Below, in pieces: positions 19,017 to 48,105 of a stretch of 64,000 nucleotides of DNA (the first letter of the stretch is position 1; each line of letters opens with the position of its first letter). Below the pieces are notes generated by a model. That model was given only the letters and a program-made list of their open reading frames with translations. It ran no database searches and had not been told where the DNA came from. Origin of the DNA: Thioalkalivibrio halophilus (GTDB lineage Bacteria > Pseudomonadota > Gammaproteobacteria > Ectothiorhodospirales > Ectothiorhodospiraceae); NCBI RefSeq assembly GCF_001995255.1, contig NZ_MUZR01000014.1:5254-69253 (forward strand), read 5' to 3'. The translations under genes were made by a program, and so were the position numbers.

Positions 19017-22000
19017 TCAGCTCGCGTGGTGGGTGGACGTGGCGCCGCGATCGAATGCCCCCTCGTACAGGCGCAGCAGCGCCGGGATCACGAACAGTAC
19101 CAGCACCGTGGCCACTGCCAGCCCAAACACGATCGAGATCGCCATCGGGATCAGGAACTGCGCCTGCACCGAGCGCTCGAACAGCAGCGGGGTGAGGCCC
19201 GCGATGGTGGTGACCGAGGTCAGGATGACCGCGCGCAGGCGCTGGCAGGAGGCCTCGATGATCGCCTCGCGCAGGGCCAGACCGCTCTCCCGCAATCCCT
19301 GGTAGAAGCTGACCAGGATGATGGAGTTGTTGACCACGATCCCGGTCAGGCCGAACAGGCCGAACATCGACAGCACGGTCAGCTCCACCCCGAGGATCCA
19401 GTGGCCCAGCAGGGCCCCGAGGATCCCGAACGGGATGATGGCCATCACGATCAGCGGCCAGCCCCAGGAGGCGAAGACCCAGGCGAGGATGATGTACATC
19501 AGGCCCAGCGCCAGCACCAGGCCCGTGCGCATGTCGGCAAACGTCTCCTCCTGATCCGCCGCGCGGCCCTCGAAGGACCAGTCCACCCCGTGGCGCTCGG
19601 CGACCGCGTCCAGCGGACCGTCTTCCAGCGCGGCGCGGATGCGCGCGGCATTGTTCACCGAGCGGTCGACTTCGGTGGATACCTCGATCGCGAGGCGGGT
19701 ATCGGCATGCCGCAGGGTCTCGAAGCCGGGACGGGATGCGAGTTCCGCCACGTTCTCCAGCGGGGTCAGCTCGCCGTCCGGCAGGCGGATCTGCAGGCGG
19801 TCCAGGCTTTCCGTCGCGTGGCGTTCGTCGTCGGGCAGACGCACGCGTACCTCGACCTCCTCCAGGCCATCCTGATAGATCTGCGCCAGATGGCCGTCGT
19901 AGGCGTCGCGCAGCTGCGCGCCGATCTGCTCCGTGGTCAGTCCGAGGGCGCGGCCTTCCGGCAGGATGCGGAAGGTCAGCTGCTCGCGGCCGAACGGGGT
20001 GTCGTCCTGGGTGGCGAAGGTGCCCGGGAACTCGTCGAACAGATCGGCCACGTCCAGTGCCGCGTCCTTGAGGATATGCGGGTCATCGCCGGTCAGACGC
20101 ACTTCGAGATCGCGCCCGGGCGGGCCGGCCTGACGCTCGTCAATAGAAAAGGTCTCGATGCCGGGGGCCTCGCGGACGTTGTCCCGCCATGCCTGGATGA
20201 ACGCCCGGTTGCGCACCTCGCGGGCCTCCGGCGAGATCAGCTCGACCTGGATGTTGCCGAACTGGTCGCCCTGCGGGGCGTTGCCGTCGCCGGGGTCGAT
20301 GCCGCGTCCGAGCCGGGTCACCGAGGCACGCACCAGGCCGCCGCCGAGTTCCTCGTCGGTTTCCTCCAGCGCCTGTTCGACGTGGATGAGGAACTCTTCG
20401 ACCCGTTCCGGCGGGGTGCCGGCCACGAAGTTCACGCCCGCGTTGACGACCGTGCCCTCGGGCGAGGGGAAGAAGGTGAAGCCGATGCGTCCGGATGCCG
20501 CCAGGCCGATGGCCAGGATCACCGCCCCCACCGCCAGGGCGAGGGTGACCCCGGAGTGGTCCACGGCGTGCGTGACGGCACGGCGGAACGGGCCGTTGCG
20601 CAGGTTCTCGAACCCCCGGTCGAAGCGCGCCCGCAGGCTGCCGGCCGGCGGTTCCTCGAGGCGATCCATCACGCCCTTGAGATGGGCCGGAAGGATCAGG
20701 AACGCGATCAGCAGGGTGGCCACGATCACGCAGATCACCACCAGCGGGATGTCGAACAGGATGTTGCCGATGATCCCGCCGATCAGCATCAGTGGCATGA
20801 AGGCCGCGACGGTGGTCAGTGACGCGGCGACGACCGGACCGACCATGCGCTGAGCACCCTGACGTGCCGCCCGACTGGCCGACAGGCCCCTCTGATGCAG
20901 GCTGTAGGCGTGCTCGGAGACGACGATGGCGTTGTCGACGATGATCCCCAGCGACATGATGAAGCCGAACAGCGACATCATGTTGATCGAGCCACCCACC
21001 AGCCACAACACCACGAATGCGGCGGTGAAGGCGATCGGGATGCCGAGGGCGACGCGCAGGGCGATGTGGCGGTTCAGGAACAGGAACAGGATCCCGAGCA
21101 CCAGCAGGAGTCCCCCGGCACCGTTTTTCAGCAGCAGGGTGATGCGCTCGGACAGCAGCTCCCAGAACGCATCGGTTTCCTGCAGCTCGACACCCGGGGG
21201 CAGGGCGGGCCGGGTGCGCTCCAGCCACTGTTCGAGGATGCGCGCGGATTCCAGGGCGTCGCCGGTCTCGCTGCGCATCAGCTGCATCTCGATGGCCCGC
21301 GTACCCTGCGAGCGGACACGCACCTCGCCGTCCCGGGGGCGCAGGTCGATGTCGGCGATGTCGCCCAGCAGCACCCGACCGCGTTCGGGGTCGCCCTGCA
21401 GCACCAGGCGTTCGAAGGACACGATGTCGCGTGCCTGCTCCAGGCTGCGCAGCTGTCGGGCGGTGTCGTCGCGTCCGACCGAGCCGGCGGGCATGTCGCG
21501 GCTCATGCCGGCGATCGCGGCGCCGATGTCGGCCAGGGTCATGTCCAGGCGGTAGAGATTGAAGGCCGGCACCTGGATGGCCATCTCGTCTTCCGTGAGG
21601 CCGGTGAATTCGACCCGCGCGATGCCGGCGTCCAGCAGCTCGCGTTCGTATTGCCGGGCCAGGGTCCGCAGCTGTTCCGGGTCGTCGGGGCCGGTGATCA
21701 GCAGGCGCGAGACCGGTTCGTAGTTGATCACCTGATTGACGATCGGGGTCTCGGCATCCGCCGGCAGGTTACGCTGCTGATCGACCCGGTCGTTGACCTG
21801 TTCCAGCGCGTGCGACATGTCCGCGCCGGGTTCGAACTCCAGGGTGATGGTCGCCACCCCCAGCGCGGAGGTGGAGGTCATTTCGCGCAGGTCGTCGACC
21901 GTGCGCAGGTCCTGCTCCAGCGGGTCGGTGATCGACTGTTCCACGTCTTCGGCGGCAGCGCCCGACCACACGACCTGGACCGTGATGATGTCGAGATCAA

Positions 22001-22187
22001 AATCGGGGAAGAACTGCGAGTTCAGCTGGTTCAGGGCATAGGCGCCCGCCAGCAGCATCAGCGCGATCAGCAGGTTGGCGGCCAGGCGGTGTTCCAGGAA
22101 CAGCCGGATCGGACCGCGACCGGCCGCGCCCTCCGCATCGCCCCCGGCCGCGGCGCCACCCGGCATGGGTGCGCTGGTTTCACTCAT
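19017..22187 (-). CDS. RND efflux permease (AcrB superfamily), first system
   Basis: A 1056-residue inner-membrane proton antiporter. TM1 is at about 29-50 after a Gly/Ala-rich cytosolic leader. A large periplasmic loop follows, then a TM cluster about 355-500 with GIIVDNAIVVSEHA (one of the two canonical TM4 acidic positions is Asn), a second periplasmic loop, and a final TM cluster with LFGLTGIVVNNSIILV. It overlaps the adaptor gene by 8 bp, so the two are coupled. No outer-membrane channel gene is adjacent. The substrate cannot be read from the sequence. Confidence 0.9.
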   Translation of the reverse strand: MSETSAPMPGGAAAGGDAEGAAGRGPIRLFLEHRLAANLLIALMLLAGAYALNQLNSQFFPDFDLDIITVQVVWSGAAAEDVEQSITDPLEQDLRTVDDLREMTSTSALGVATITLEFEPGADMSHALEQVNDRVDQQRNLPADAETPIVNQVINYEPVSRLLITGPDDPEQLRTLARQYERELLDAGIARVEFTGLTEDEMAIQVPAFNLYRLDMTLADIGAAIAGMSRDMPAGSVGRDDTARQLRSLEQARDIVSFERLVLQGDPERGRVLLGDIADIDLRPRDGEVRVRSQGTRAIEMQLMRSETGDALESARILEQWLERTRPALPPGVELQETDAFWELLSERITLLLKNGAGGLLLVLGILFLFLNRHIALRVALGIPIAFTAAFVVLWLVGGSINMMSLFGFIMSLGIIVDNAIVVSEHAYSLHQRGLSASRAARQGAQRMVGPVVAASLTTVAAFMPLMLIGGIIGNILFDIPLVVICVIVATLLIAFLILPAHLKGVMDRLEEPPAGSLRARFDRGFENLRNGPFRRAVTHAVDHSGVTLALAVGAVILAIGLAASGRIGFTFFPSPEGTVVNAGVNFVAGTPPERVEEFLIHVEQALEETDEELGGGLVRASVTRLGRGIDPGDGNAPQGDQFGNIQVELISPEAREVRNRAFIQAWRDNVREAPGIETFSIDERQAGPPGRDLEVRLTGDDPHILKDAALDVADLFDEFPGTFATQDDTPFGREQLTFRILPEGRALGLTTEQIGAQLRDAYDGHLAQIYQDGLEEVEVRVRLPDDERHATESLDRLQIRLPDGELTPLENVAELASRPGFETLRHADTRLAIEVSTEVDRSVNNAARIRAALEDGPLDAVAERHGVDWSFEGRAADQEETFADMRTGLVLALGLMYIILAWVFASWGWPLIVMAIIPFGILGALLGHWILGVELTVLSMFGLFGLTGIVVNNSIILVSFYQGLRESGLALREAIIEASCQRLRAVILTSVTTIAGLTPLLFERSVQAQFLIPMAISIVFGLAVATVLVLFVIPALLRLYEGAFDRGATSTHHAS

Positions 22188-24859: not shown

Positions 24860-24875
24860 TGGCATTTCTATTGCT
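24860..24875 (+). promoter_or_regulatory. Sigma-54 (-24/-12) promoter
   Basis: TGGCATTTCTATTGCT matches the TGGCAC-N5-TTGCW consensus with exact spacing; the GG is at 24861-24862 and the GC at 24873-24874. It is embedded in AT-rich DNA (24735-24880) that contrasts with the GC-rich surroundings and could bend or bind IHF (ATTCAATAATATT at 24839-24851 is a loose match). The start codon of the adaptor gene is 74 bp downstream. Confidence 0.8.
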
Positions 24876-24949
24876 TGTATCGGGGCGTGCTTTTCTCTAC
24901 AACGAAACAAGACCAACGGAACAGGCACGCTGTCGGGGGGGAGGTGCGA

Positions 24950-26098
24950 ATGACGCTGATGCGAACGGCCAGCCTGATGCTGTGCATGGTCGCCCTGGTT
25001 GGTACGGCCGGGGCGCAGACCGCCTGGACGCCGGCCCAGAGCCCGGGAACCACGAGTCCGGACAATACCGGGGTCCATGTTGCTCAGCCGCTCGCCGCGG
25101 AGCGCCATACCGTCAGCGGCACGGTGATCCCGTTCAGTGAAGTGACCCTGCGGGCGCAGTCGGGTGGCCGGGTGATCGCGGTCGAAGGGGTCGAGGGCGA
25201 CCGCTTCGAAGCGGAAGAAGAACTGGTCGCGATCTCCGACGATCGCCTGCAGGCCCAACGCCAGGCGGCGCTCGCCGAGATGCGCACCACCGAGGCGGCG
25301 ATCCGCGAAGCACGCATGCAGTACGACCGCGAGGTCATTTCCCCGCGCTCACAGGACATCGGGCAGATGCCGGGCATGGGCATGCCGTCGATGTTCGACC
25401 AGATGTTCACGCGCAACATGGGGCAGTTCATGGGATTCGGTGACCCGACCCTGGACCGCACTACGGATCTCTTTTCCCGCCACATCGGCGTCGATCAGGC
25501 CCGGGCGCGCTGGGAGCAGGCCCGGGCCCGCGTCGAGGAGCTCGACGTCGCGCTGGAGGACACCCGCTCCCGTGCTCCGTTTGACGGGGTGATCATGCAC
25601 AAGCACGTGGAACAGGGCGATACCGTTCAGCCCGGGCATCCTCTGGTCACCTTCGGGCACCTGGATTATCTGCGGGTGGAGGCGGCCGTGCCGGTTCGCC
25701 TGGTGCGTCAGCTGGACGTGGGCGACATCGTTCCGGTGACGCTCGACGGGCATGCCGAAGAAGTCAGCGCCCGGGTCTCGCGGATCTTCCCGCTGGCCGA
25801 CCCGCAACGCCATACCGTGACCGTGAAGTTCGATCTGCCGCAGGAGGTCCGCGGCGGCCCGGGCATGTACGCCGAGGTGCATCTGCCGGGCGAAGTGACG
25901 CGCGAAGACCGGGTGGTGATCCCGGAGAGCGCGATCATCCCGGGCGGGGCCCTGCCGCGCGTGGCCGTGCTGGATGCCGATGACGAGGTGCGCATCCGCA
26001 TGGTCCGGCTGGGGGCGTCGCGTGATGGCGGCGTGGTCGTGACCTCGGGGCTGGAGCCCGGGGCGCGGGTGCTGCGGCACCCCGGCGGCCGCCATTGA
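24950..26098 (+). CDS. RND periplasmic adaptor with Met-rich insertion, second system
   Basis: A 382-residue exported protein; ATG 24950 follows a strong GGAGGT. The signal peptide ends GTAGAQ (about residue 24). Lipoyl halves are at about 55-100 (SGGRVIAVEGVEGDRFEAEEELVAI) and 205-245 (DTRSRAPFDGVIMHKHVEQGDTV). Between them the hairpin is short and carries a Met/Phe/Gly-rich stretch (residues about 140-170, MPGMGMPSMFDQM then NMGQFMGFGDP). Beta-barrel and membrane-proximal domains follow. It is the first gene after the sigma-54 promoter and precedes the permease by 42 bp. Confidence 0.88.
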   Translation: MTLMRTASLMLCMVALVGTAGAQTAWTPAQSPGTTSPDNTGVHVAQPLAAERHTVSGTVIPFSEVTLRAQSGGRVIAVEGVEGDRFEAEEELVAISDDRLQAQRQAALAEMRTTEAAIREARMQYDREVISPRSQDIGQMPGMGMPSMFDQMFTRNMGQFMGFGDPTLDRTTDLFSRHIGVDQARARWEQARARVEELDVALEDTRSRAPFDGVIMHKHVEQGDTVQPGHPLVTFGHLDYLRVEAAVPVRLVRQLDVGDIVPVTLDGHAEEVSARVSRIFPLADPQRHTVTVKFDLPQEVRGGPGMYAEVHLPGEVTREDRVVIPESAIIPGGALPRVAVLDADDEVRIRMVRLGASRDGGVVVTSGLEPGARVLRHPGGRH

Positions 26099-26140
26099 TG
26101 CGCTTCGAAATCGAACAATGACAGGACGTTCGCGCCAGAC

Positions 26141-29100
26141 ATGAGCGACCAGGAACCTCGCAACCAGGAACGGCCCGGCGATCACGCGACCGATCCCGGC
26201 ATCGCCGGGCGCATGGCCCGCGCCTTCGTCCATTCGCCGCTGTCGCCGCTGCTGCTGCTGGCCAGCATCGCGATCGGCATCCTCGGCCTGGTCGTCACGC
26301 CACGCCAGGAAGACCCGCAGATCTCGGTCCCGATGGTCGACATCATGGTGGAGTATCCGGGCGTACCGTCGGAGCAGGTGGCCAGTCTGGCCGCGCGGCC
26401 GCTGGAACGTCTGATGAGCGAGCTCTCGGGTGTCGATAACGTCTACTCGGTCTCGCAGCGAGGCGAGGCGATGGTTACCGTCCAGTTCGACGTCGGCGAG
26501 GAAATGGAATCCTCGGTGGTCAAGGTGCACGACCGGCTGATGTCGAACCGCGATCTGATGCCTCCGGGGGTCAGCGAACCGATGGTCAAGCCCAAGGGTG
26601 CGGATGACGTGCCGGTGGTGACGCTGACCTTCTGGTCGCACGAGGTCGATGACGCGATGCTGCGCCAGATCGCCCTGGACGCGCAGCAGCAACTCAACGA
26701 GGTACCCGACACCGCGCAGAGCTTCGTGGTCAGTGGCCGCGAGGAAAAACTGCGCATCGAGGTGCGGCCGGAACGGCTGGAAGGTTACGGGGTCACCCTG
26801 GATCAGATCGCGGGTGCGGTGCGTCAGGCCAATTCCGAACGCGGCGCGGGCGCGATCGAGGCGGGTGGACGGCACATGTCGGTGCACACCGGTTCGTTCC
26901 TGACCAGTGCCGAGGATGTCGAACGCCTGCTGATCTCGGTGGAAGACGGTCGCCCGGTGTATCTGCGCGACGTGGCCGACGTGAGCTATGGCCCGGGGGA
27001 GGTGGATCGCTTCGTGCGTCACTATTCCGGCCCGGCCGCCGAGGCACCCGATGCCGCACCGGAGGGTGCGTCCGCCGTGACCCTCGCGATCGCCAAGAAG
27101 CCCGGCAGTAACGGGGTCACGGTCGCCAATGGCGTGCTCGAACGCCTGGAGCGCCTGAAAGGCTCCGCCATCCCCGACAACGTGGGCGTCGAGATCTCGC
27201 GCGACTACGGCAAGACGGCCAACGAAAAGGTCAACGAGCTGATCTTCAAGCTGTTTGTCGCGACCTTCGCGGTGACCCTGCTGGTGGCGCTGTTCCTGGG
27301 GCTGCGCGCGGCACTGGTGGTGCTGATCGTGATTCCGGTTGTGATCCTGTTCACCGTGTTCAGCGCGTGGCTGCTCGACTACACCATCGACCGGGTGAGT
27401 CTGTTCGCGCTGATCTTCGCGATCGGGATCCTCGTGGACGATGCCATCGTCGTGGTGGAGAACATCTACCGCCGCTGGCTGATGAAGCGCGGCCTGGATG
27501 CCGAAACCAACGTGGATGCGGTACGCGAGGTGGGCAACCCGACGATCCTCGCGACCTTTACCGTGATCGCTGCACTGCTGCCCATGGGCTTCGTGTCCGG
27601 GATGATGGGTCCCTACATGCAGCCGATCCCGGTTCTGGGGTCGGTCGCCATGCTGTTCTCGCTGGTCGCGGCCTTCGTGTTCACCCCCTGGCTGACCCAG
27701 CGGCTGCGCCCGAGCATGGCCTACCTGGAGAAGGCCACCGAAAAGGAACACCGGCAGGCCGAGCGGCTGGGTACGTTCTTCCGCCGGGTGATCCCCGGGC
27801 TGGCGGACAATCCCGCCCGGGGCTACGCCTTCCTGGCCGGTATCGTGGTGGTGTTCTTCCTGATGGCCAGCCTGTTCTACACCACGGATGTCCGGGTGAA
27901 GATGCTGCCGCTGGACAACAAGCCCGAATTCCAGGTGATGATCAATTTCCCCGAGGGCACGGCGCTGACCGAGACCGCCTCGCTCAGCGAAGCGATGGTG
28001 TCCGAGCTGCGGGAGTTCGAGGAAGTGACCGGGCTGCAGGCATATGTCGGCACTGCGGCGCCGTTCAATTTCAATGGTCTGGTGCGTCATTACTACCTGC
28101 GCCAGGACCCCTGGCTGGGCGATATCCAGGTTCAGCTGGTGGACAAGGGCGATCGTGCGCGCTCCAGCCACGAGATCGCCACCGAGGCCCGTGAGCGTCT
28201 GACACCGCTGGCCCGCGAAGCCGGCGCCCGCATCGAAGTGGTGGAGATGCCGCCGGGGCCCCCGGTCCTGCAGTCGGTGGTCGCCGAGGTGTATGGCCCG
28301 GATGCCGATACCCGGCGTCAGGTCGCGCGCGACCTGGAAGGAATGTTCCGTGGGGCCGAACACGTGGCGGACGTCGACAGCTTCCTGCAGGCCCCGCACG
28401 ACGTCTGGCATTTCGACGTGGACCGCGACAAGGCCCTGCGCCGCGGTGTCACCGTGGAGACCGTGAACCAGACGCTGGAGACCGCGATCGGTGGCCGGGT
28501 CCTGGGCGACATCAAGGCGCGTTCGCTGGTGGAGCCGCACCTGATCGAGCTGCGCCTGCCACGCCCCACGCGCTCCGATATCGGGCGTCTGGAACAGCTG
28601 CCGGTGGCCTCGCAGCATGGCGGGACAGTCAGCCTGGGCGAGCTGGGTCGGTTCGTCGAGCGCCCGCAGGACGAACCCATCTATCACAAGAACCTGAGGC
28701 CGGTGGAGTATGTCACCGGCGAAGTGGTGGGGCGTCTGGCGGCGCCGGTCTACGGGATGCTCGAGGTGCAGGAACAACTCGCCGATTACGAGCTTCCCGA
28801 CGGCAGTCGGGTGCAGCCGCACTGGCTGGGACCGCCGCCGAACGACGGTTCCACGGCGTTCGAATGGGCCGGCGAATGGACGGTTACCTACGAGACCTTC
28901 CGCGACATGGGCATCGCGTTCGCCATCGCCCTGATTCTCATCTACATGCTTGTGGTCTGGGAGTTCGGGAACTTCGTGCTGCCGGGCATCATCATGGCCC
29001 CGATCCCGCTGACCCTGATCGGGATCATCCCGGGCCACTGGCTGTTCAACGCCGAATTCACCGCGACCTCGATGATCGGGTTCATCGCTCTCGCAGGGAT

Positions 29101-30025
29101 CATCGTGCGCAATTCCATATTGCTGGTCGATTTCGGTCGCCAGGCGGTGGATCAGGGACATGACGTCCGCGAGGCGATGATCCTCGCCTGTCAGGCGCGC
29201 ACGCGGCCCATCATCATCACCGCGTTCGCGCTGCTCGCCGGTTCCAGCGTCATCCTGTTCGACCCCATTTTCCAGGGCATGGCGATCTCGCTGATGTTCG
29301 GGACCATCGTGGCCACGCTGCTGACCCTGGTCGTTATCCCGCTGGGCTGTATCTCCGGGCGGCGCGCGTTCTGTCCCGCCTCGCTGGAAGACGGCGACGG
29401 CACCAACGGCTCCGGCTGTGCTACCCCGACGAGTGGCAGTGCCGGGACCGGCCGTGACGACAATCCCTTCGGCCCGGCCGAGGGCGGACCGGTCACACGC
29501 GCAGTCCAGTATCTCGGGTTGTATCTGCGCTGCCTGGCCGCCGCCTTCGTCGAGGGCATGCGCGATCTTTTCCTCGCCTTGTTGAAGCTTCTGCGCGGCC
29601 GTTTCGGGGCGCGCCCGGGGCCGGGGCCGGGGCCGGGCGGTGGCCCGAGATCCGGCGGTTCCGGCTCGGGCTCCGGGCCTTCTCCAGCCCCGTCGTCCGG
29701 TCCTGCGCCGGGTCCCCCCGCGTCGGGGGCCTCGGACGGCCCCTCCGGCCGTGGAGCGGACGCGGGTGCGAACGCCGAATCCGCGCCGGACGAGGGCCAT
29801 GGATCGAAGGAGGGGGGTACGGCCGAGCCCCGGAAATCCGGCAGGGATACCCGTTCCGACGGATCGGAGAGCGCCGGGACGGAGACTCCGCAGGATCACG
29901 ATTCCACCACCACGGAACAGAAGTCGGAACCCGGGGAAGACGGAAAAGAACCGTCTTCCTCGGGGGCGGGCCCCGGTGCACGCCATTCGGGTGGCCGCCG
30001 ACGCCGGGGTATTCGGCTGAAATGA
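26141..30025 (+). CDS. RND efflux permease with long disordered C-terminal tail, second system
   Basis: A 1294-residue inner-membrane transporter. The AcrB-type core covers about 1-1065: TM1 (about 32-55), TM4 with GILVDDAIVVVENIYRR (both canonical acidic residues present) and the TM10-12 cluster ending VVIPLGCIS. The remaining 225 residues have no counterpart in AcrB. They comprise a Cys-containing linker, an amphipathic or hydrophobic segment (about 1117-1160, LYLRCLAAAFVEGM) and about 135 residues of Gly/Pro/Ser then Asp/Glu/Ser-rich low-complexity sequence ending in a basic RRRRGIRLK. The tail should be cytosolic. It is followed after 30 bp by the first Gly/Tyr-rich protein gene. Confidence 0.9.
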   Translation: MSDQEPRNQERPGDHATDPGIAGRMARAFVHSPLSPLLLLASIAIGILGLVVTPRQEDPQISVPMVDIMVEYPGVPSEQVASLAARPLERLMSELSGVDNVYSVSQRGEAMVTVQFDVGEEMESSVVKVHDRLMSNRDLMPPGVSEPMVKPKGADDVPVVTLTFWSHEVDDAMLRQIALDAQQQLNEVPDTAQSFVVSGREEKLRIEVRPERLEGYGVTLDQIAGAVRQANSERGAGAIEAGGRHMSVHTGSFLTSAEDVERLLISVEDGRPVYLRDVADVSYGPGEVDRFVRHYSGPAAEAPDAAPEGASAVTLAIAKKPGSNGVTVANGVLERLERLKGSAIPDNVGVEISRDYGKTANEKVNELIFKLFVATFAVTLLVALFLGLRAALVVLIVIPVVILFTVFSAWLLDYTIDRVSLFALIFAIGILVDDAIVVVENIYRRWLMKRGLDAETNVDAVREVGNPTILATFTVIAALLPMGFVSGMMGPYMQPIPVLGSVAMLFSLVAAFVFTPWLTQRLRPSMAYLEKATEKEHRQAERLGTFFRRVIPGLADNPARGYAFLAGIVVVFFLMASLFYTTDVRVKMLPLDNKPEFQVMINFPEGTALTETASLSEAMVSELREFEEVTGLQAYVGTAAPFNFNGLVRHYYLRQDPWLGDIQVQLVDKGDRARSSHEIATEARERLTPLAREAGARIEVVEMPPGPPVLQSVVAEVYGPDADTRRQVARDLEGMFRGAEHVADVDSFLQAPHDVWHFDVDRDKALRRGVTVETVNQTLETAIGGRVLGDIKARSLVEPHLIELRLPRPTRSDIGRLEQLPVASQHGGTVSLGELGRFVERPQDEPIYHKNLRPVEYVTGEVVGRLAAPVYGMLEVQEQLADYELPDGSRVQPHWLGPPPNDGSTAFEWAGEWTVTYETFRDMGIAFAIALILIYMLVVWEFGNFVLPGIIMAPIPLTLIGIIPGHWLFNAEFTATSMIGFIALAGIIVRNSILLVDFGRQAVDQGHDVREAMILACQARTRPIIITAFALLAGSSVILFDPIFQGMAISLMFGTIVATLLTLVVIPLGCISGRRAFCPASLEDGDGTNGSGCATPTSGSAGTGRDDNPFGPAEGGPVTRAVQYLGLYLRCLAAAFVEGMRDLFLALLKLLRGRFGARPGPGPGPGGGPRSGGSGSGSGPSPAPSSGPAPGPPASGASDGPSGRGADAGANAESAPDEGHGSKEGGTAEPRKSGRDTRSDGSESAGTETPQDHDSTTTEQKSEPGEDGKEPSSSGAGPGARHSGGRRRRGIRLK

Positions 30026-30055: not shown

Positions 30056-30799
30056 ATGATGAAGAAGCGATTTAATGCACGCATGCTCGGTCTGGCCATG
30101 GCCGGCGCCGCAGTGGTCTCGATGTCCGTGCTGGGCGCGGCCCAGGCGGAAGAAGGGAACCCGGGCGCTCAGGGTCAGCCGATGGGCCAGCATGCTCCGG
30201 TTCCCGGTCCCTGGGGCCAGCCGGGTCCGTATGGACAGGGCATGGGCGGGCATCAGGGCGGCGAGATGATGCAGCGTCGCGATGCCTCCGGTGACTTCAG
30301 CTTCGGCATGTCCGGGCGCAGCCACGGGCAGGGCTACGGCCAGGGCCGCGGTCAGGGATATGGCCAGGGCCGCGGTCAGGGATATGGCCAGGGCTACGGT
30401 CAGGGTTACGGCCCGGGACATGGTTATGGCCCGCGGTATGGATACGGCCCGGGCCATGGTGCCGGCTATGGTCCGCAGCAGGGTCATGGCCCCGGCATGA
30501 TGCACGGTCCCGCGTACGGTCCCGGTTATGGTCCCGGTATGCAGGGTCCCGGAGGCTACGGCCAGATGCCGGAATTTGATCCCGAAGATCTGCCGGAGGA
30601 CATGCCGGAAGAGATGCGCGAGCGTATCGAGCGCATGCAGGCCGAGCGGCAGGAACGCATCGAGGAAATGGAAGCCATGCGCGAGGCCCGAATGGAAGCC
30701 ATGAAGAAGGGTCGCCAGGCCTACATGGAAGAGATGGAACGCCAGCGCGAGATGCGCATGGAGCAGATGGAAGAGCGTCGCGACTCGGGGGACTACTGA
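30056..30799 (+). CDS. Exported Gly/Tyr/Gln-rich repeat protein, sulfur-globule-protein-like (copy 1)
   Basis: About 247 residues. AGGAGG sits before two adjacent ATGs (30056 and 30059; the second has better spacing). The signal peptide ends at GAAQA (about 31). The mature part has three zones: a Gly/Gln/Pro region; GYGQGRGQ and GYGPG repeats (about 85-175) introduced by GDFSFGMSGRSHGQGYG; and a C-terminal Glu/Arg/Met-rich helix (about 185-243), likely coiled coil, ending in RRDSGDY. Regular Gly/Tyr repeats and an export signal resemble Sgp proteins of purple sulfur bacteria. That is similarity of style and of a short motif shared with the gene at 31363, not proof. Confidence 0.7.
   Translation: MMKKRFNARMLGLAMAGAAVVSMSVLGAAQAEEGNPGAQGQPMGQHAPVPGPWGQPGPYGQGMGGHQGGEMMQRRDASGDFSFGMSGRSHGQGYGQGRGQGYGQGRGQGYGQGYGQGYGPGHGYGPRYGYGPGHGAGYGPQQGHGPGMMHGPAYGPGYGPGMQGPGGYGQMPEFDPEDLPEDMPEEMRERIERMQAERQERIEEMEAMREARMEAMKKGRQAYMEEMERQREMRMEQMEERRDSGDY
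30330..30440 (+). repeat. Tandem 24-bp coding repeats
   Basis: The unit CAGGGCCGCGGTCAGGGATATGGC recurs nearly unchanged and degrades into GGCTACGGTCAGGGTTACGGC-type units. It encodes the GYGQGRGQ repeats of the exported protein and is a likely site of length change by slippage. Confidence 0.75.
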
Positions 30800-30849
30800 G
30801 CACCGGGTGACGCATGGGAGCGAGGCGAATGGCGTTCGGAGGTGACGGC

Positions 30850-31266
30850 ATGCAGCGGGGAGCAACAGCGGGGCGGAGCGTCCTGCTGGTGGCCCTGGTG
30901 ACGGTCGGGCTGATGGTGGCCGCTGCGGCTGCCGAGGCCCGGGAACGTCACAACCCGTGGCATGCCGGACCGCCATCCGCGGCCGATGCGGGAGAGCCGG
31001 GAGGCTTCACCCGGAGCGAACCCCGGTCGGCTGGATCGTTCCCTCCGCCGGACTACGATCCGGCGCGGCGGGGACGCGAGGACCGCTCGCGCGTTCCCGC
31101 AGGTGAAGCACGCCCGGGTCCCGGGATGTCGCCCTACGGTTACGGGTCCGGTCCGTATCCGTATGGCGGCCACCGGGGACCGGGGGCAAGTGAACCGGGC
31201 ATGTCAGGATATGGATTCCCGTTCTTCGGCGGCCCGGGTTCATGGGGACCCTTTTCGGGGCCCTGA
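30850..31266 (+). CDS. Exported Gly/Pro-rich protein (copy 2 position)
   Basis: A 138-residue protein. ATG 30850 follows GGAGGTGA at ideal spacing; upstream in-frame ATGs lack this. The signal peptide has a hydrophobic core, LLVALVTVGLMVAAAAA, and cleaves near AEARE. The mature chain is low complexity: Arg/Asp/Pro-rich first, then SPYGYGSGPYPYGGHRGPG and GYGFPFFGGPGSWGPFSGP. The terminal FPFFGGPG element recurs as MPFFGGPG in the protein encoded at 31363, which suggests the two are related. No catalytic motif is visible. It probably belongs to the same structural set as its neighbours. Confidence 0.6.
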   Translation: MQRGATAGRSVLLVALVTVGLMVAAAAAEARERHNPWHAGPPSAADAGEPGGFTRSEPRSAGSFPPPDYDPARRGREDRSRVPAGEARPGPGMSPYGYGSGPYPYGGHRGPGASEPGMSGYGFPFFGGPGSWGPFSGP

Positions 31267-31286: not shown

Positions 31287-31362
31287 GGCCGGTGCGTGAC
31301 CGCCCTCCGCGCATCGGTGGCAGAAATGGGAGGGCATGTCTCCGAGAGGAGGAGGTAACACT

Positions 31363-31800
31363 ATGAGCAAGTTTCTGAAAGCAGCCGTTCTTGCGGCATC
31401 CATGGCCGGTCTGGCCGCTGCCCCGATGATGGCTTCCGCGCAGTGGGGCGGCCCGGGGTATGGCGGCCCGGGCTACGGGGCTCCGTACGGTCCCGGTTAT
31501 GGCTATGGCCCCGGCTACGGTGGCATGCCGTTCTTTGGCGGTCCGGGTTACGGCCGCGGCCACAACATGGGCGACATGATGGGCGACATGATGGGCGATT
31601 TCGATTTCTCCGCCCGCGGTCGCGGTCATGGTCACGGCTACGGTCACGGGCGTGGTGACGGCTACGGCTATGGTCGTGGTCAGGGCTACGGTCCCGGCTA
31701 CTATGGCCATCCGGGCTACGGTTACGGCCCCGGGTACGGCTATGGCCCGCAGCAGGGCATGCCGCAGCAGGGCATGCCGCAGCAGCAGCAAGAGCAGTGA
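31363..31800 (+). CDS. Exported Gly/Tyr-rich protein, sulfur-globule-protein-like (copy 3)
   Basis: A 145-residue protein, with ATG 31363 behind AGGAGGT. The signal peptide cleaves near MASAQ (about 26). The mature chain is GYG/GPGYG repeats interrupted by an acidic Met/Phe core, [19 protein letters not shown] (about 67-85), and ends in GMPQQ repeats and QQQQEQ. The GDFDF...[10 protein letters not shown] core and the flanking Gly/Tyr repeats resemble proteins annotated as sulfur globule (CV1-type) family, structural components of the envelope around periplasmic sulfur deposits. A silk-like or cell-surface role is the alternative. Strong terminator hairpins follow. Confidence 0.72.
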
Positions 31801-31807
31801 TCTGCTC

Positions 31808-31825
31808 GCACGGGCTCGCCCGTGC
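31808..31825 (+). terminator. First of two tandem hairpins after the Gly/Tyr-rich gene
   Basis: GCACGGG and CCCGTGC pair over a CTCG loop. It stands 7 bp after the stop codon and directly before a stronger hairpin, so it probably acts with that one rather than alone. Confidence 0.5.
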
Positions 31826-31831
31826 ATGATC

Positions 31832-31861
31832 GGCTGCCCGGTTCGCCGGGCAGCCCGTTTT
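31832..31861 (+). terminator. Intrinsic terminator before the parA-like gene
   Basis: A perfect 10-bp stem, GGCTGCCCGG/CCGGGCAGCC, with a TTCG loop, followed two bases later by TTTT. It separates the exported structural proteins from the cytosolic and membrane genes downstream. The parA-like start is only 26 bp later with no obvious promoter, so downstream expression probably relies on partial readthrough. Confidence 0.75.
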
Positions 31862-31887
31862 CGAATTCAATGGATCCGGGAGCCGCA

Positions 31888-32514
31888 ATGCTGACCGTGG
31901 TGGCCAACCTGAAGGGTGGAACGGGCAAGAGCACCGTCGCTTTCAATCTCGCGCTCTGGCTGCTCGCGAAAGGGCACCGCGTGCAGGCCGTGGACCTGGA
32001 TCCGCAGGGGACTCTCGGCGATGTCCTGGAAGTGCGGCAGGAGGAGGGGTACAGCCCCGCGCTCCCCGCCACGACCGATGCCGACGTCGCGCTGGGTCGG
32101 CAGGGGGATTTCGATCACTGGCTGGTGGACGTCGGGCCCTCCGCCATGGACACCCTGATGCAGGCGGTCGCCGCCGCGGACCGGGTGCTGATCCCGGTGC
32201 CGCCCAGTCAGGCCGACGTCTGGTCCACTCACCGTTTCGTGCGCGAGATCCAGGGGCGTCGGACCGATCGCGACACAGGCCCCGGCATCGAGGTATTCAT
32301 CAATCGCGCCGACACGCACCAGTTCGTGCGCGAGACCGAGGAGACTGCGGAGGCCCTGCAGCAGATCGAGGGTATCCGTTTTCTGCGCCCTCGGCTGAAG
32401 CAGCGCACGGCCTTCCGTCGGTCGTTCAGCGAGGGTCTCGCGGTGAACGAGCTGGAGCCATCCGGCAAGGCGGCGGAGGAGCTGGATCGACTGGCCCGGG
32501 CAATTTTCGGATAA
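31888..32514 (+). CDS. Orphan ParA/MinD-family ATPase
   Basis: A 208-residue cytosolic ATPase. ATG 31888 follows GGGAG; an upstream in-frame ATG (31870) is less likely. The deviant Walker A is NLKGGTGKST (residues 8-17), the A' region is VDLDPQGTL and Walker B is HWLVDVGPS. There is no N-terminal HTH, no ParB gene and no parS-like array nearby, so it is of the small orphan type that positions cargo such as carboxysomes, chemoreceptor arrays or conjugation machinery. Two membrane coiled-coil proteins and a dynamin-like GTPase follow at 35-55 bp gaps, suggesting an envelope-associated cargo. Confidence 0.85.
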   Translation: MLTVVANLKGGTGKSTVAFNLALWLLAKGHRVQAVDLDPQGTLGDVLEVRQEEGYSPALPATTDADVALGRQGDFDHWLVDVGPSAMDTLMQAVAAADRVLIPVPPSQADVWSTHRFVREIQGRRTDRDTGPGIEVFINRADTHQFVRETEETAEALQQIEGIRFLRPRLKQRTAFRRSFSEGLAVNELEPSGKAAEELDRLARAIFG

Positions 32515-32549: not shown

Positions 32550-33191
32550 ATGGGATCAGGTGAAGACAAGCCGCGCCACGGTTTCATCAATCGCTACTGG
32601 GTGCTGATCGTGATCGTCCTCTGGTTGATCGCCTGGTCCGCCCGTGACTGGCTGGCGCCGGCCGAACCGGAAGATCCGCCCGCGGATTCCGGCGTCGTGC
32701 TCGAGGAAGAGCCCCCTGCCTGGGACGAAGAAGCCGCCAGGGAAGAGGCTGCTCGGGAGGAAGCCGCTCGGCAGGAAGCCGCTCGGGAAGAAGCCGCCCG
32801 GGAAGAAGCCGCCCGGGAAGAAGCCGCCAGGGAAGAAGCCGCCAGGGAAGAAGCCGCCAGGGAAGAAGCCGCGGAGGAGCCGGTGGAGGTCGAGGCGCTG
32901 TTGACCGAAGCGCGGGAGACGTACTGGCGCGAGGGCGCCGCAGCCGCGATGAACATTCTCGAAGACGGGCTGGAGACGCAGGCGTACGAAAGCCGGGAAC
33001 GGGCGGACATCCTCGGGGAACTGGGCAATCTGCAACACGCCACCGGCGACGTTGAAGCCGCCATGGGCAGCTGGGACCGGGCGCTGGAGAAGCTTCCGGA
33101 GGGCGAACGCCGGGCGATGATGGCCCCACTGCGTCCGATCTATGCCCGGCATCATCCGCAAGGGGTGGACCACCTGGAACGGTTCCGCTGA
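32550..33191 (+). CDS. Membrane-anchored protein with EEAAR repeats and TPR-like C-terminus
   Basis: A 213-residue protein. A short basic N-terminus and one TM segment (about 16-32, YWVLIVIVLWLIAWSA) are followed by Pro/Asp/Glu linkers and about ten copies of a five-residue EEAAR repeat (60-110), predicted to form a long charged single alpha-helix. The last 100 residues (AAAAMNILEDGLETQ, ADILGELGNLQHATGDVEAAMGSWDRAL) look like tetratricopeptide helices. This layout suggests a spacer arm presenting a protein-binding head. No enzymatic motif is seen. It sits between the ParA-like gene and a second membrane coiled-coil gene. Confidence 0.7.
   Translation: MGSGEDKPRHGFINRYWVLIVIVLWLIAWSARDWLAPAEPEDPPADSGVVLEEEPPAWDEEAAREEAAREEAARQEAAREEAAREEAAREEAAREEAAREEAAREEAAEEPVEVEALLTEARETYWREGAAAAMNILEDGLETQAYESRERADILGELGNLQHATGDVEAAMGSWDRALEKLPEGERRAMMAPLRPIYARHHPQGVDHLERFR
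32727..32879 (+). repeat. 15-bp tandem repeats encoding EEAAR
   Basis: Units such as GAAGCCGCCAGGGAA recur about ten times in frame, several of them identical at the DNA level. The near-identity implies recent expansion or homogenisation and predicts copy-number differences between strains. Confidence 0.85.
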
Positions 33192-33244: not shown

Positions 33245-33793
33245 ATGGGTGCGAAAGACAGGCCAGCTGACGGCGACAGTCAGTATTACGAGGTCAAGGA
33301 CGAGGCGGACGATGCGCAACGACGGGCCCGGCGGCTCGAACTGATCGTCTATGCTTCCCTGGTCGCATTCGTTGTGCTGGCGGTGTACGGTTTCTGGTTG
33401 ATCACCAGCCTGACCCGGGACGTGTCACAGCTGACCGAGGAGATCTCCTCGATGACCCGGGTGGTGGACCGCGACATGTCGGCGATTGTGCGCCACATGG
33501 AGGCGATGGAGGGCCGCATGGTGGATATTGCGGGGTCCACGGCCGAGATGGAGCAGAGCGTTGCGTCCATCAGCGAGGACACCGGCCGCATGAGCACGGA
33601 CATCGGGTCGATGACCCGGGATACCGAGGTGATGGCCGGGTCCGTGATCGGCATGCAGCGCGACATGTGGAGCCTGAATCGCAATGTGGGCGGTCCCATG
33701 GGTATGATGAACATGTTCAACCCACTCTCGGGGCAGGGCGGTCCCTATCCGGGGTCGGGCGGCCCATACCGTCCGCCGTCGGCGCCGCGCTAG
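33245..33793 (+). CDS. Membrane-anchored coiled-coil protein, chemoreceptor-like without signalling tip
   Basis: A 182-residue protein beginning at ATG 33245 after a GGAGG. A charged N-terminus, one TM helix (about 31-54) and a long coiled coil follow (about 55-150), with heptad-spaced Met/Ile/Val (EEISSMTRVVDRDMSAIVRH, MEQSVASISEDTGRMSTDI). This resembles HAMP-proximal or methyl-accepting helices but lacks the conserved hairpin signalling tip. The C-terminus is Gly/Pro-rich (GGPMGMMNMFNP, GGPYPGSGGPYRPP), echoing the exported Gly-rich proteins upstream. It may be an adaptor between the ParA ATPase and its cargo. Function unknown. Confidence 0.65.
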   Translation: MGAKDRPADGDSQYYEVKDEADDAQRRARRLELIVYASLVAFVVLAVYGFWLITSLTRDVSQLTEEISSMTRVVDRDMSAIVRHMEAMEGRMVDIAGSTAEMEQSVASISEDTGRMSTDIGSMTRDTEVMAGSVIGMQRDMWSLNRNVGGPMGMMNMFNPLSGQGGPYPGSGGPYRPPSAPR

Positions 33794-33839
33794 TCGTGTG
33801 CGCGGTCTGCCCCGGGCCCGAACCAATACGGAGATCGGA

Positions 33840-35411
33840 ATGTTCAATCGACCTGGCAGCCGCGTCCGCAAGCAGCTCAAGCTCCTGAGTGACCGTCTGG
33901 CGGAGGAAAACCCGGTCCTCGAGGGCGTGGTCAATCCGTTCCGGGAACTGGATCGGGTCGGATATGCCTCGGGCCTGCTGGATCCGGAAGAAGAGTCCTA
34001 CGCCTTCACCATTTCGTGGTGGCCGATGATCTCGGTCCTGGGGACCTTTTCCTCGGGCAAGTCCACGTTCATCAACGAGTTCGTGGGTGAAACCGTGCAG
34101 CGCAGCGGCAGTCAGGCGGTGGACGACAAGTTCACCGTGATCTCCTATGGCGGCAGCGAACGGGTGCAGGAGCTCCCGGGCCTGGCGCTCGACGGTGATC
34201 CGCGCTTCCCGTTCTATCGGGTGTCCGACGAGATCGAACGCATCACCGATGGCGGCGGGCGCACGGTGGATCATTTCCTGGCCATGAAGACCGCGCGCGC
34301 GGAGCAGCTGCGGGGCCGCATTCTGATCGACTCGCCCGGCTTCGATGCCGACGAGCAACGCACCACCATCCTGCAGCTGACCGACCACATCATCGATCTG
34401 TCGGATCTGGTGCTGGTGTTCTTCGATGCACGGCACCCCGAACCCGGCGCCATGCGCGACACCCTGGAACACCTGGTCAACCGGGTGGCCGAGCGCAACG
34501 ACTTCACCAAGCTGGTCTTTATCCTGAACCAGATCGACACGACCTGGCGCGAGGACAACCTCGAGGAAGTCGTCGCGGCCTGGCAGCGCGCGGTGGTGCG
34601 CCAGGGGAATGCAACCGGGCGTTTCTACTGCATCTACAACGAAAGCGGTGCGGTGGAGATCGGGGACCCGCAGGTGCGGGAACGCTACGAGGAGAAATCC
34701 GCGCACGACCGCGAGGAGATCCACAAGAAAATCCGGGAGATCAGTTCGTCGCGGTCCTATCGCATTATTGGAGCATTGCAGGCGATTGCCGAGTCCATCG
34801 AGATGGATGTGCTGCCGGCGATCAAGCGCAGCCTCGACCGCTGGCGTCGTCGGGTGCTGCAGTTCGACGCGGGCATGATGGGGGTGCTCGTGGCGGTGCT
34901 CGCGGTGATCGGGTATCAGGCGACCGACGGCATCCGTCCGTGGATCGACGGGCGGGTGTGGGGAACTCTGCTGGATAACCCGGTCTGGACCTCGGCGGGC
35001 GTGATCCTGCTGGTGGTGGCTCTGGGCGGGATCCATTTCTTCAACCGGCGCTGGCTGGCGCGGCGAATCGCGCGCGAACTGCCGAAGGAATCGGCGGCGG
35101 GGAACTGGCAGGAGGCCTTCCTCAAGAGCACCCGTCCGATGCGTTCGCTATTCGCGCGCTCGCCGCGCGGACTCGGGCGGCGGCGTCTGGCGCGTCTGCA
35201 TGGTCTCCGCGATCAGGCAGAGGCCTATATCCAGAAGCTCAACAATCAGTTCGTGGACGCACGTCCCGTGGATCCCGGCAGTGGCCGGGCGTCCGCGGCG
35301 GACGTCCACCGTCCGGCGGAGGCGGCCGAACGGCGGCCGGCGCCGGAATCCGGACCGGATCAGGAAGGTTCGGCCGAGGTCAGTGATGCAGGGAGCAACG
35401 GAACGCGGTAG
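33840..35411 (+). CDS. Dynamin/EHD-like membrane GTPase
   Basis: A 523-residue protein. ATG 33840 is preferred over an upstream in-frame ATG because of GGAGATCGGA spacing. The G1 P-loop is GTFSSGKST (68-76), the G3 motif is DSPGF (164-168), and NQID (230-233) stands at the G4 position instead of N/TKxD. The order and flanks (VLVFFDARHPEPG, KLVFILNQID) recall EHD and bacterial dynamin-like proteins. A helical stretch precedes two hydrophobic segments (about 344-360 and 384-401), so it is probably anchored in the inner membrane. The tail is Pro/Glu/Ala-rich and disordered. Such proteins tubulate, bend or fuse membranes. Confidence 0.8.
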   Translation: MFNRPGSRVRKQLKLLSDRLAEENPVLEGVVNPFRELDRVGYASGLLDPEEESYAFTISWWPMISVLGTFSSGKSTFINEFVGETVQRSGSQAVDDKFTVISYGGSERVQELPGLALDGDPRFPFYRVSDEIERITDGGGRTVDHFLAMKTARAEQLRGRILIDSPGFDADEQRTTILQLTDHIIDLSDLVLVFFDARHPEPGAMRDTLEHLVNRVAERNDFTKLVFILNQIDTTWREDNLEEVVAAWQRAVVRQGNATGRFYCIYNESGAVEIGDPQVRERYEEKSAHDREEIHKKIREISSSRSYRIIGALQAIAESIEMDVLPAIKRSLDRWRRRVLQFDAGMMGVLVAVLAVIGYQATDGIRPWIDGRVWGTLLDNPVWTSAGVILLVVALGGIHFFNRRWLARRIARELPKESAAGNWQEAFLKSTRPMRSLFARSPRGLGRRRLARLHGLRDQAEAYIQKLNNQFVDARPVDPGSGRASAADVHRPAEAAERRPAPESGPDQEGSAEVSDAGSNGTR

Positions 35412-45004: not shown

Positions 45005-48000
45005 ATCCGCCCGGCGGCGACAACGCCGGGTCCGGGTTCAACGCCGCGACCTGGGCCATCCAGCGGGCCCGGCTGGTGGTCTTCCTGACGGCCCTGCTGG
45101 TCCTCGGCGGGACCTGGGCCTTCATCGACATGGGCAAGCTCGAGGATCCCGAGTTCACCGTGCCGACCGCGCTGGTGCAGACCGGGTATCCCGGTGCTCG
45201 AGCCACGCGGGTGGAGGAGGAGGTCACCGAGGTCCTGGAGCGCCATATCCAGCAGCTCGACGAGCTGGACGAACTGGAATCGGTCAGCCGCCATGGCGAG
45301 TCGGTGATCTTCGTCCACGTCGACGAGGCTCTGGGGGATCAGGCCCAGCGCCAGGTCTGGGACGAGCTGGAACGCACCGTGCGCGCGGCGGTACCCGATC
45401 TTCCGGAGGGGATCCGCGGTCCGCTGGTAGACGACGACTACGGGGATGTCTTCGGCACCCTGCTGGCGATCCACGGCGAGGGCTACAGCCACCGCGAGCT
45501 GCACGACTACGCCGATGAACTGCGCCGTGAACTGTTGCGCCTGCCCGGGGTGGCGCGGGCCGAGCTGTTCGGCGATCGCGGCGAGCGGATCTTCGTCGAG
45601 ACCCGGCGTTCGCGTCTGGCCGCACTGGATCTGCATCCGGGGGTGATTATCCAGGCCCTGGAGCGCCAGAACGTGGTGGCGCCCGGCGGGGCGATCGAAC
45701 TGGAGGAGGATCGCGTCCGGCTGTTCGTCTCCGGGGTGTTCGAATCGGTGGACGACGTTCGCAACCTGGCCATCCACAACCCCGAGACCGGCGAGCGTTT
45801 CCAGCTGCGCGATGTGGCCGAAGTGCACCGCGGTGACGCCGAGCCGCCGGAGCGCATGCTGCGCTACAACGGTCAGCCGGCGGTGGCGCTGGGGGTGAGC
45901 CCGACCGAAGGGACGAACGTGGTCGCCCTGGGTGACGACGTCCTGGAGCGCATCCAGGCGTTGCGCGGGGATCGCCCGGTGGGGATCGACATCGACACGG
46001 TCAACTTCCAGCCGGAGACCGTGCGCGCGGCCATCCTGGATTTCGGCGGCAATCTGGCGACCGCGGTGGTCATCGTGCTGGGGGTGCTGCTGGTAGCGCT
46101 CGGGTGGCGCACCGGCCTGATCGTCGGCATGGGCGTCCCGCTCACCATCCTGGCGACGTTCTTCGTGATGTGGGTGGCGGGGATCGAGCTGCACCGGGTC
46201 TCGCTGGGGGCCCTGATCGTGGTGCTGGGGATGCTGGTGGACAACGCCATCGTCGTCGCCGAGCTGATGATGACCCGCATCCGGCGCGGCACCGAGCGCC
46301 TGCAGGCGGCGCGCGAGGCGGTCAGCGAGACCGGCGGGCCGCTGCTGATCGGGACCCTGATCGCAGCGCTGGCGTTCTCGCCGATCAGCATGACGCCGAC
46401 CCTGGTGGGCGAATTCACCCGCTCGCTGTTCTGGGTGGTGGCGATCGCGCTGGGCCTGTCGTGGCTGCTGGCGGTGACCCTGACGGCCCTGCTGGCGTGG
46501 CGCTGGTTGCCGGCTCCGGCGAATGGCGATCCGACCGGCACGGAGACGCCCGGAATCGGCACGCAGCTGCTCGCGCTCTATCGCCGGGCGCTCACGGCCA
46601 TGCTGCGCCATCGCCGTCGGACTCTGGCGTCGGTGGTCGGCCTGATGCTGGTCGCGGTCGCGTCCTTTGCGCTGGTACCGCAGATCTTCTTCCCGCCGGC
46701 CGACCGGGCGCAGTTCATGATCGATCACTGGCGGGGAGAAGGGACGCGCATCGAGACCACCGCAGCCGATGTGGCGCGGCTGGAATCCTGGCTGTCGCAG
46801 CACCCCGAGGTGGAAAGCTACACGGCCTTCATCGGCGAGGGGTCCCCGCGGTTCTATCTGCCGATGATGCCCGAGCTTCCCAATCCGGCGCTGGCCCAGA
46901 TCCTGGTGCAGGTCGAAGACGTGGATCGACTGCATGACATCATCGCGGAGACCCGCGAATGGATGGACGGTCGCTTCCCCGGGGCGGAACCTCGGGTGCG
47001 GCCGATGCAGCTGGGGGAGCCCGTGCGCTATCCGGTGGAGCTGCGGCTGTCCGGGCCGCAGGACCGGGCCGAACTGCGCGCCACCGCCGACCGCGTGCTG
47101 GAATGGATGGAAGGTCACCCAGACCTGGAACGGCCCCGGCATGACTGGCGCGAACGCACACTGACGCTGGACGTACAGGTGGATCAGGACCGGGTACGAG
47201 CGGCCGGGCTGTCCAGCGCCGAGGTGGCCGAGACGCTGGAGGCCGGGGTCAGCGGCATGCCGATCGGGGTGTTTCGCGATGGCGATCAGGCCCTGCCGGT
47301 GCTGTGGCGCTTCCCGGAGGACGAACGCCGGGATCTGGCACAGCTGCACACCCTGGAGATCTGGCCGCGCGACGGTGGGGCGGCGGTGCCACTGGGCCAG
47401 GTAGCCGAGGTGGAGCCCGTGTTCGACGAGGCGGTGATCTGGCGCCATGACCGGCGCCCCACCGTGACCCTGCAGGCGGACCTTGCCCCCGGTGCCACCG
47501 CCAGCGGTTTCGTGCGCGAGGCCGACCCGGTGATCGACACCCTGCTGCAGGGCACCGGGAACGCCGGGCGAGTGGAGCGCGCATGGGGCGGCGAGTTCGA
47601 GGCGGCCGCCGATGCCCAGGCCAGCGTGCTGGCGCCGGTGCCCGTCGTCCTGGGGCTGATGGTGGTGTTACTGCTCTGGCAGTTCAACAGCTTCCGCAAC
47701 ACCCTCGTGGTGGCACTCAGCGTCCCGCTGGCGGTGGTGGGCGTGGTCGCGGGTCTGCTGCTGTTCCGGCAGCCGTTCGGTTTCATCGCCCTGCTGGGGG
47801 CAATGAGCCTGGGCGGAATCCTCCTGCGCAATGCGATTGTGCTGGTGGAGCAGGCCGAGCTGGAACGCCGCCGCGGACTGGACCCCCTGGAGGCCCTGAT
47901 CGAGGCCGCGGTCAATCGTTTCCGCCCGGTGCTCCTGACCGCCCTGACCACCATCCTCGGCATGATCCCGCTGGCGCTGTCCGGACCGTTCTGGGCGCCG

Positions 48001-48105
48001 CTGGCCATTGCCGTGATGAGCGGCCTTGCCGCCGGTACGGTGCTGATCCTCGGCGTGGTGCCGGTGCTCTACGCGACGCTGCACCGGCTCCCGCGTCCGG
48101 CCTGA
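45001..48105 (+). CDS. RND efflux permease, third system
   Basis: A 1034-residue transporter starting at GTG 45001. TM1 is at about 24-45; the TM2-6 cluster begins near 345 and includes GMLVDNAIVVAELM (Asn at one canonical acidic position); the TM7-12 cluster includes LGGILLRNAIVLVEQ. The normal end, VPVLYATLHRLPRPA, shows no tail, unlike the second system. No outer-membrane channel gene is nearby. It is closest in style to uncharacterised HAE1-type pumps with a single adaptor. Confidence 0.9.
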   Translation: MNPPGGDNAGSGFNAATWAIQRARLVVFLTALLVLGGTWAFIDMGKLEDPEFTVPTALVQTGYPGARATRVEEEVTEVLERHIQQLDELDELESVSRHGESVIFVHVDEALGDQAQRQVWDELERTVRAAVPDLPEGIRGPLVDDDYGDVFGTLLAIHGEGYSHRELHDYADELRRELLRLPGVARAELFGDRGERIFVETRRSRLAALDLHPGVIIQALERQNVVAPGGAIELEEDRVRLFVSGVFESVDDVRNLAIHNPETGERFQLRDVAEVHRGDAEPPERMLRYNGQPAVALGVSPTEGTNVVALGDDVLERIQALRGDRPVGIDIDTVNFQPETVRAAILDFGGNLATAVVIVLGVLLVALGWRTGLIVGMGVPLTILATFFVMWVAGIELHRVSLGALIVVLGMLVDNAIVVAELMMTRIRRGTERLQAAREAVSETGGPLLIGTLIAALAFSPISMTPTLVGEFTRSLFWVVAIALGLSWLLAVTLTALLAWRWLPAPANGDPTGTETPGIGTQLLALYRRALTAMLRHRRRTLASVVGLMLVAVASFALVPQIFFPPADRAQFMIDHWRGEGTRIETTAADVARLESWLSQHPEVESYTAFIGEGSPRFYLPMMPELPNPALAQILVQVEDVDRLHDIIAETREWMDGRFPGAEPRVRPMQLGEPVRYPVELRLSGPQDRAELRATADRVLEWMEGHPDLERPRHDWRERTLTLDVQVDQDRVRAAGLSSAEVAETLEAGVSGMPIGVFRDGDQALPVLWRFPEDERRDLAQLHTLEIWPRDGGAAVPLGQVAEVEPVFDEAVIWRHDRRPTVTLQADLAPGATASGFVREADPVIDTLLQGTGNAGRVERAWGGEFEAAADAQASVLAPVPVVLGLMVVLLLWQFNSFRNTLVVALSVPLAVVGVVAGLLLFRQPFGFIALLGAMSLGGILLRNAIVLVEQAELERRRGLDPLEALIEAAVNRFRPVLLTALTTILGMIPLALSGPFWAPLAIAVMSGLAAGTVLILGVVPVLYATLHRLPRPA

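Follow-up and report, generated by a model that had tools for sequence, protein, structure and literature searches.

Why does an RND permease of Thioalkalivibrio halophilus continue for more than 200 residues past the end of its AcrB-type core? The gene lies within a window of 64,000 nucleotides, the whole stretch of DNA analyzed here, where its open reading frame spans positions 26141-30025 (+) and encodes a product of 1294 amino acids. The co-evolution of the last seven residues of this product with a small ParA ATPase suggests an answer, namely that bacteria may place a membrane transporter by means of the cell's DNA-surfing machinery.

An RND Pump with a Long C-Terminal Tail

The permease core (aa 1-1068; 26141-29344, +) passes the Pfam ACR_tran cut-off by a wide margin (524 vs. 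28 bits, 8.4e-157), with a full-length match to profile positions 7-1015 of 1021 that covers aa 31-1068 only. The Asp pair of the proton relay in TM4 (D433 and D434) is invariant among 18 diverse homologs, and an AF2 model of the C-terminal half matches the folds of AcrD, AcrB, CmeB, and CusA, indicating that the core has an ordinary RND fold. The pump shares with AcrB/CusA-type permeases both the ACR_tran domain and an adjoining adaptor gene, here a periplasmic adaptor (MFP) of uncertain start codon (24875-26098, +; Pfam HlyD_D23 6.9e-17, NCBIfam RND_mfp above cut-off) that is syntenic across the genus. Unlike those permeases it carries a 226-residue tail and scores far short of the NCBIfam cut-offs for all named RND subfamilies, the best being NF033617 (464 vs. 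1250), with CusA/CzcA at 278 vs. 701. Two further RND permease genes in the window, at about 19068-22109 (-) and 45052-48084 (+), do not belong to the tailed-pump subfamily. A 1545-aa open frame antisense to most of the RND gene (25349-29986, -) is probably a GC-rich shadow frame and no gene.

The residues beyond the core (aa 1069-1294; 29345-30022), noticed as an extension in an earlier note made from the DNA letters, largely have the composition that note described. A short linker (aa 1069-1116; 29345-29488, +) starts GCISGRRAFC and holds two cysteines, Cys1070 and Cys1083. The GC[IV]SA motif with Cys1070 (29348-29350), a cytosolic-face Cys following the last TM helix, is kept in many tail-less members of the subfamily as well. 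The extra amphipathic segment proposed earlier corresponds to aa 1117-1155 (29489-29605, +), which AF2, run on the C-terminal half with a 42-sequence alignment, models as one continuous 39-residue helix (pLDDT 78-84). Its hydrophobic moment is 0.39 vs. 0.17 for shuffled sequences (p 0.013), and its charged residues lie on one face except for R1154 at the helix end. A hypervariable linker of about 130 residues (aa 1156-1287; 29606-30001, +) comes next, passing from Gly/Pro/Ser-rich to acidic; AF2 gives pLDDT below 50 over most of the modeled tail outside the helix, and the linker is therefore predicted to be disordered. The basic cluster recorded at the tail end proved to be RRRRGIRLK, of which the last seven residues, RRGIRLK-COOH (aa 1288-1294; 30002-30022, +), form a conserved, putative docking motif that had escaped the earlier note.

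The C-termini of RND pumps are cytosolic. Given this, the amphipathic character of the helix, and eight motif-bearing tails that lack any hydrophobic helix, the tail is most readily placed in the cytosol. In some relatives the segment matching the tail helix is more hydrophobic and may, from its sequence, be a TM helix. An extra TM helix that would carry the tail to the periplasm is unlikely for the window protein, whose helix is amphipathic with a basic flank and has a KD19 value of 1.36, vs. at least 1.94 for the other TM helices of the same protein.

Conservation of the Tail and Its Terminal Motif

Tails of this kind are indeed rare among RND pumps in general, as the earlier note held, but in the pump's own subfamily they are the rule. 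The pump is present, at 75-100% identity, in 25 genomes of a genus sample comprising 29 other genomes and the window's own, and in all 19 orthologs that could be read to the C-terminus the tail measures 200-390 aa and ends in RRGIRL[K/S/T]. None ends near residue 1065; the more distant relatives that do stop there are those without ParA. Among 369 evenly drawn gammaproteobacterial genomes the RND subfamily occurs in 74, and most relatives, across the Gammaproteobacteria and a second proteobacterial class, are also tailed. The same architecture recurs in dozens of families: a core, a short linker bearing Cys, in most cases a helix that is amphipathic or hydrophobic, a hypervariable disordered linker, and a terminal motif lying 0-27 residues before the stop. 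Motif carriers include Allochromatium, Chromatium, Hydrogenovibrio, Sedimenticola, Thiothrix, and Thiomargarita, all of them sulfur oxidizers.

Over 88 tails the motif has the consensus [KR][KR]xRRGI[R/Q/K]LK, with G and I found in every one, R in 87, and L in 85, and it appears in none of 2000 shuffled tails. The 120-380 residues before it are unalignable, the linkers of orthologs differing in both length and composition. The frame nevertheless stays open across this rapidly diverging linker until the same final residues are reached, and dN/dS of the tail is 0.08-0.53 in close pairs; the tail is thus translated and constrained as a protein rather than a product of chance. A lost stop codon or an assembly error that produced a meaningless extension, for which only the low complexity of the tail would speak, has a negligible chance of being the explanation: a frameshift or lost stop is rejected by the orthologs, with the same ending on long open tails in the genus and in dozens of families, and by dN/dS below 1.

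A degenerate DNA pattern of the motif has a single match in the whole T. halophilus genome, that of the pump, and a genome-wide tag can be dismissed on that count. Other RND paralogs with readable C-termini, mostly 39-45% relatives, lack the motif. Two second-copy RND pumps (L114 and L118), likewise motif-free, have tails that end in an apparent helix-hairpin-helix domain (ISGIGPKIEALLNEAGIYHFWQIAEW in L114). Variant or decaying motifs are seen in L292 (genome G253), whose tail ends RRGIRADRKPPK, and in L293, a second RND copy of G130, whose tail ends RRGIRADKKPTK.

Joint Presence and Loss of the Motif and a Small ParA

The candidate partner of the motif is a small ParA ATPase encoded downstream (31822-32514, +), in which homology begins at an ATG at 31888 that may be the real start. 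It has the deviant Walker A sequence KGGTGKST with K31 and K36 invariant; KGG[TS]GKST is found in 49 of 51 orthologs, and both the signature and the catalytic lysine are conserved. The protein scores below the cut-off of the NCBIfam ParA_partition model NF041546 (143.2 vs. 180 bits). Whole-genome searches, made in 40 chosen genomes and then in all 369, place a ParA ortholog in 65 of the latter. Within the genus, no ortholog was found in members without the RND gene (best match 35%).

At the level of genomes, motif and ParA are both present in 67 (18 in the genus) and both absent in 13; five are discordant, and nine are left unassigned, as contigs end within the repetitive tail. Genus loci cut by contig ends, where ParA is assumed rather than seen, all fall within these nine. 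Four of the five discordant genomes look like assembly gaps or variant motifs. In G102 a frameshift puts the motif, still at its expected position, out of frame, and a contig ends in G343, whose sister species carry the motif. G253, an 87% complete MAG, has ParA and an RND pump with the variant RRGIRAD, and G199 has ParA and an RND pump without the exact motif, its second RND copy being truncated. The motif is present and ParA was not found in G134, an 88% complete MAG. Comparison of L103 (from G102) with L104 shows that the frameshift shortens the tail while RGIKLK stays intact in the other frame, the result of either a real change or a sequencing error.

The pairing goes beyond the loss of whole operons, since ParA genes far from the pump still accompany the motif and selective losses occur beside retained neighbors. 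In seven motif-bearing genomes (G130, G046, G328, G276, G061, G222, and G373) ParA lies at a distance from the pump or on a separate contig. In four others (G353, G349, G250, and G126) pump, adaptor, coiled-coil, and dynamin genes are kept and ParA and motif are both absent. A decayed tail without the motif is retained in G186 and G223, which lack ParA, and the tail of Thiofilum flexile ends directly after the helix. On an RND core tree built without the tail columns, nine changes are counted for the motif and nine for ParA; among phylogenetically independent pairs about 6.8 agree and 0.2 oppose, with a median p of 0.016 from only about seven informative pairs.

The association is specific to ParA. 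At the level of loci, motif and ParA are strongly associated (26/6/0/22, p 5e-10), whereas neither the coiled-coil gene (p 0.10) nor the dynamin gene (p 0.08) is significantly associated with the motif. Docking of the tail to the downstream ParA, one of the uses the earlier note had imagined, is in this way strongly supported by evolution, as the terminal motif and the ParA ortholog appear to be gained and lost together. Its alternative, docking to coiled-coil proteins, finds no such support, and the coiled-coil protein CC2 and the dynamin were set aside as partners; the N-terminus of CC2 is unconserved and free of the motif in loci with and without ParA. Of the downstream genes whose correlation with the tail the note proposed to check, ParA tracks the motif; the Gly/Tyr-rich genes were set aside as its determinant, since they often adjoin the pump and yet are undetected in about 40% of motif-bearing loci and present in three without the motif.

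A phylum-wide search recovered the ParA ortholog in at least one other class. Of 20 ParA loci read outside the Gammaproteobacteria, 14 have an RND gene in reach, each with the motif at its end; no RND gene was found within the fetched stretch in the other six. Within the Gammaproteobacteria, six genomes have ParA and no assembled pump. One of these (G228) holds a partial RND gene with the end RRGIRLNPDI, and another (G232) shows the motif at the edge of a contig, a short distance upstream of ParA. G161 has no full RND gene of the subfamily; a free-standing membrane protein (L344, 4368-5417, -) with a hydrophobic N-terminus instead bears a disordered tail of ~280 residues ending KRRGIRLKSLPPNAHT, with KRRGIRLK at its end, and precedes Gly/Tyr-rich secreted genes. 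This gene suggests that the tail may be a module separable from transport. In G277, which also encodes the orthologous small ParA, a Soj-like ParA (KGGSGKTT; L345, minus strand, 294-aa frame) itself ends in RKRGIRLKQYQPGSCVI, a single case. Neither RND gene nor motif was found in G088 and G231, where ParA is present.

A Proposed Tether between Pump and Nucleoid

The partners of ParA/MinD (A/D) ATPases are described as acting through positively charged, disordered N-termini (PMC10241942), and the N-terminal region of ParB as supplying an Arg finger that stimulates ParA (PMC9178275). The pump tail resembles such partners in having a basic peptide, RRRRGIRLK, after a disordered linker and in being co-inherited with a cognate ParA, and it differs in that its peptide is C-terminal and the published ones are N-terminal. 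The tail would seem, with reasonable probability, to be a tether through which a dedicated ParA ATPase gains the RND pump as its membrane partner, or cargo. The pump core would sit in the inner membrane, with the amphipathic helix lying on the membrane surface and the disordered linker extending into the cytoplasm, its length being what a membrane protein would need to reach a nucleoid-bound ATPase. RRGIRLK would dock on the nucleoid-bound ParA-ATP dimer and, by analogy with the basic disordered N-termini of ParB, McdB, and ParG acting on their own ParAs, would probably serve as an ATPase-activating peptide. Cycles of ParA binding and release could then space, recruit, or partition pump complexes along the nucleoid, and the positioned complexes are likely linked to periplasmic Gly/Tyr-rich sulfur-globule proteins. 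That a widespread ParA system positions an efflux pump directly through this tether, and thereby periplasmic assemblies such as sites of sulfur-globule formation, is a broader proposal that we put forward tentatively.

The same co-distribution would also fit a pump that is an anchor and not a cargo, its motif still binding ParA and its tail recruiting the ATPase or linking nucleoid and envelope; ParA would then serve another target, for instance the chromosome, a division site, or sulfur-globule sites. Many linkers are Lys/Ala-rich and histone-like and could bind DNA as well, and the tail of G161 on a non-pump membrane protein implies that the link to ParA does not need transport activity. The repeated independent loss of ParA with the pump kept, within the nine changes on the tree, would be odd for a chromosomal function, and the neighboring genes are envelope genes; on balance we consider the pump unlikely to be an anchor. 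A tail that acts alone, either condensing or attaching its basic low-complexity stretch directly to DNA or membrane, with the ParA correlation a matter of operon hitch-hiking, is less likely again. Its low-complexity composition and the operon arrangement in most genomes are as this would have it, but linker composition shifts freely among acidic, Gly/Pro, and Lys/Ala while seven residues are kept, ParA co-occurs with the motif even when encoded far off, and the coiled-coil and dynamin genes of the same operons do not track the motif significantly. There is a slight chance that some other protein, co-inherited with ParA, recognizes the motif as a signal for docking or turnover, as the tests of co-occurrence covered neighboring genes and ParA only; among the genes tested ParA is the strongest correlate, and short basic disordered peptides are known ParA ligands (PMC10241942). 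The tether to ParA thus remains the preferred reading.

Relation to Known ParA Systems

As a class of mechanism, a ParA with a short partner peptide is already known. The McdA-McdB system of carboxysome positioning and other ParA/MinD cargo systems likewise have a dedicated ATPase encoded with the cargo genes, and McdA-McdB-type partners likewise carry a disordered basic interaction peptide (PMC10241942). Unlike McdB, the putative partner here is a polytopic membrane transporter, whose peptide forms the extreme C-terminus, beyond a disordered stretch of 120-380 residues. The word "efflux" occurs nowhere in the text of a survey of ParA/MinD systems, and efflux cargo is absent from it (PMC10241942). 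By sequence, the closest solved relatives of the small ParA are Soj/ParA and ParF; in the systems to which these belong, Soj-Spo0J/ParB and ParF-ParG of plasmid TP228, the partner acts by way of an Arg finger carried on a flexible terminal segment. Unlike in those systems, neither parS nor a DNA-binding partner resembling ParB was found here, and the putative partner is a pump.

A polytopic pump as partner, the C-terminal tag, and the identity of this ParA appear to be new; no description of ParA with RND pumps or with sulfur globules was found in the literature searched, which excludes most subscription journals. If the tether is real, ParA-based positioning extends to a membrane transporter, the orphan ParA of 65 of the 369 sampled gammaproteobacterial genomes gains a partner, and a seven-residue C-terminal motif becomes a portable luggage tag, easily tested and transplanted. 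The jointly lost motif-ParA pairs are natural knock-outs already at hand.

Operon Neighbors and Sulfur Globules

The genes downstream of the pump include GY1, a Gly/Tyr/Gln-rich secreted protein with a signal-like N-terminus that is syntenic across the genus (30056-30799, +), and GY2, a second secreted protein rich in Gly, Pro, and Tyr (30814-31266, +). A sulfur globule protein follows (31336-31800, +; Pfam SGP PF17228, 38.9 bits vs. a cut-off of 26.7). Beyond ParA lie CC1, a protein that has one TM segment, a run of AAREE repeats, and a C-terminal part that is conserved (32550-33191, +); CC2, a single-TM coiled-coil protein with weak DUF948 similarity that is present in several relatives without ParA and motif (33245-33793, +); and a dynamin-family GTPase (33798-35411, +; Pfam Dynamin_N 7.6e-16).

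Sulfur globules of A. vinosum are periplasmic, and those of Thioalkalivibrio have been described as enveloped (PMC10386293). Any effect of the pump or ParA on globules must therefore cross the membrane. Neither RND nor ParA comes up in the paper on Sgp, the sulfur globule envelope proteins of A. vinosum (PMC10386293). The SGP and Gly/Tyr-rich genes downstream of the pump suggest that the pump complex may belong to a periplasmic sulfur-globule apparatus; if the tether is real, the tail would offer a handle on a possible cytoplasmic organization of periplasmic globules in sulfur-oxidizing bacteria. Gly/Tyr-rich secreted ORFs lie downstream of 42 of 74 RND genes with the motif vs. 3 of 32 without it.
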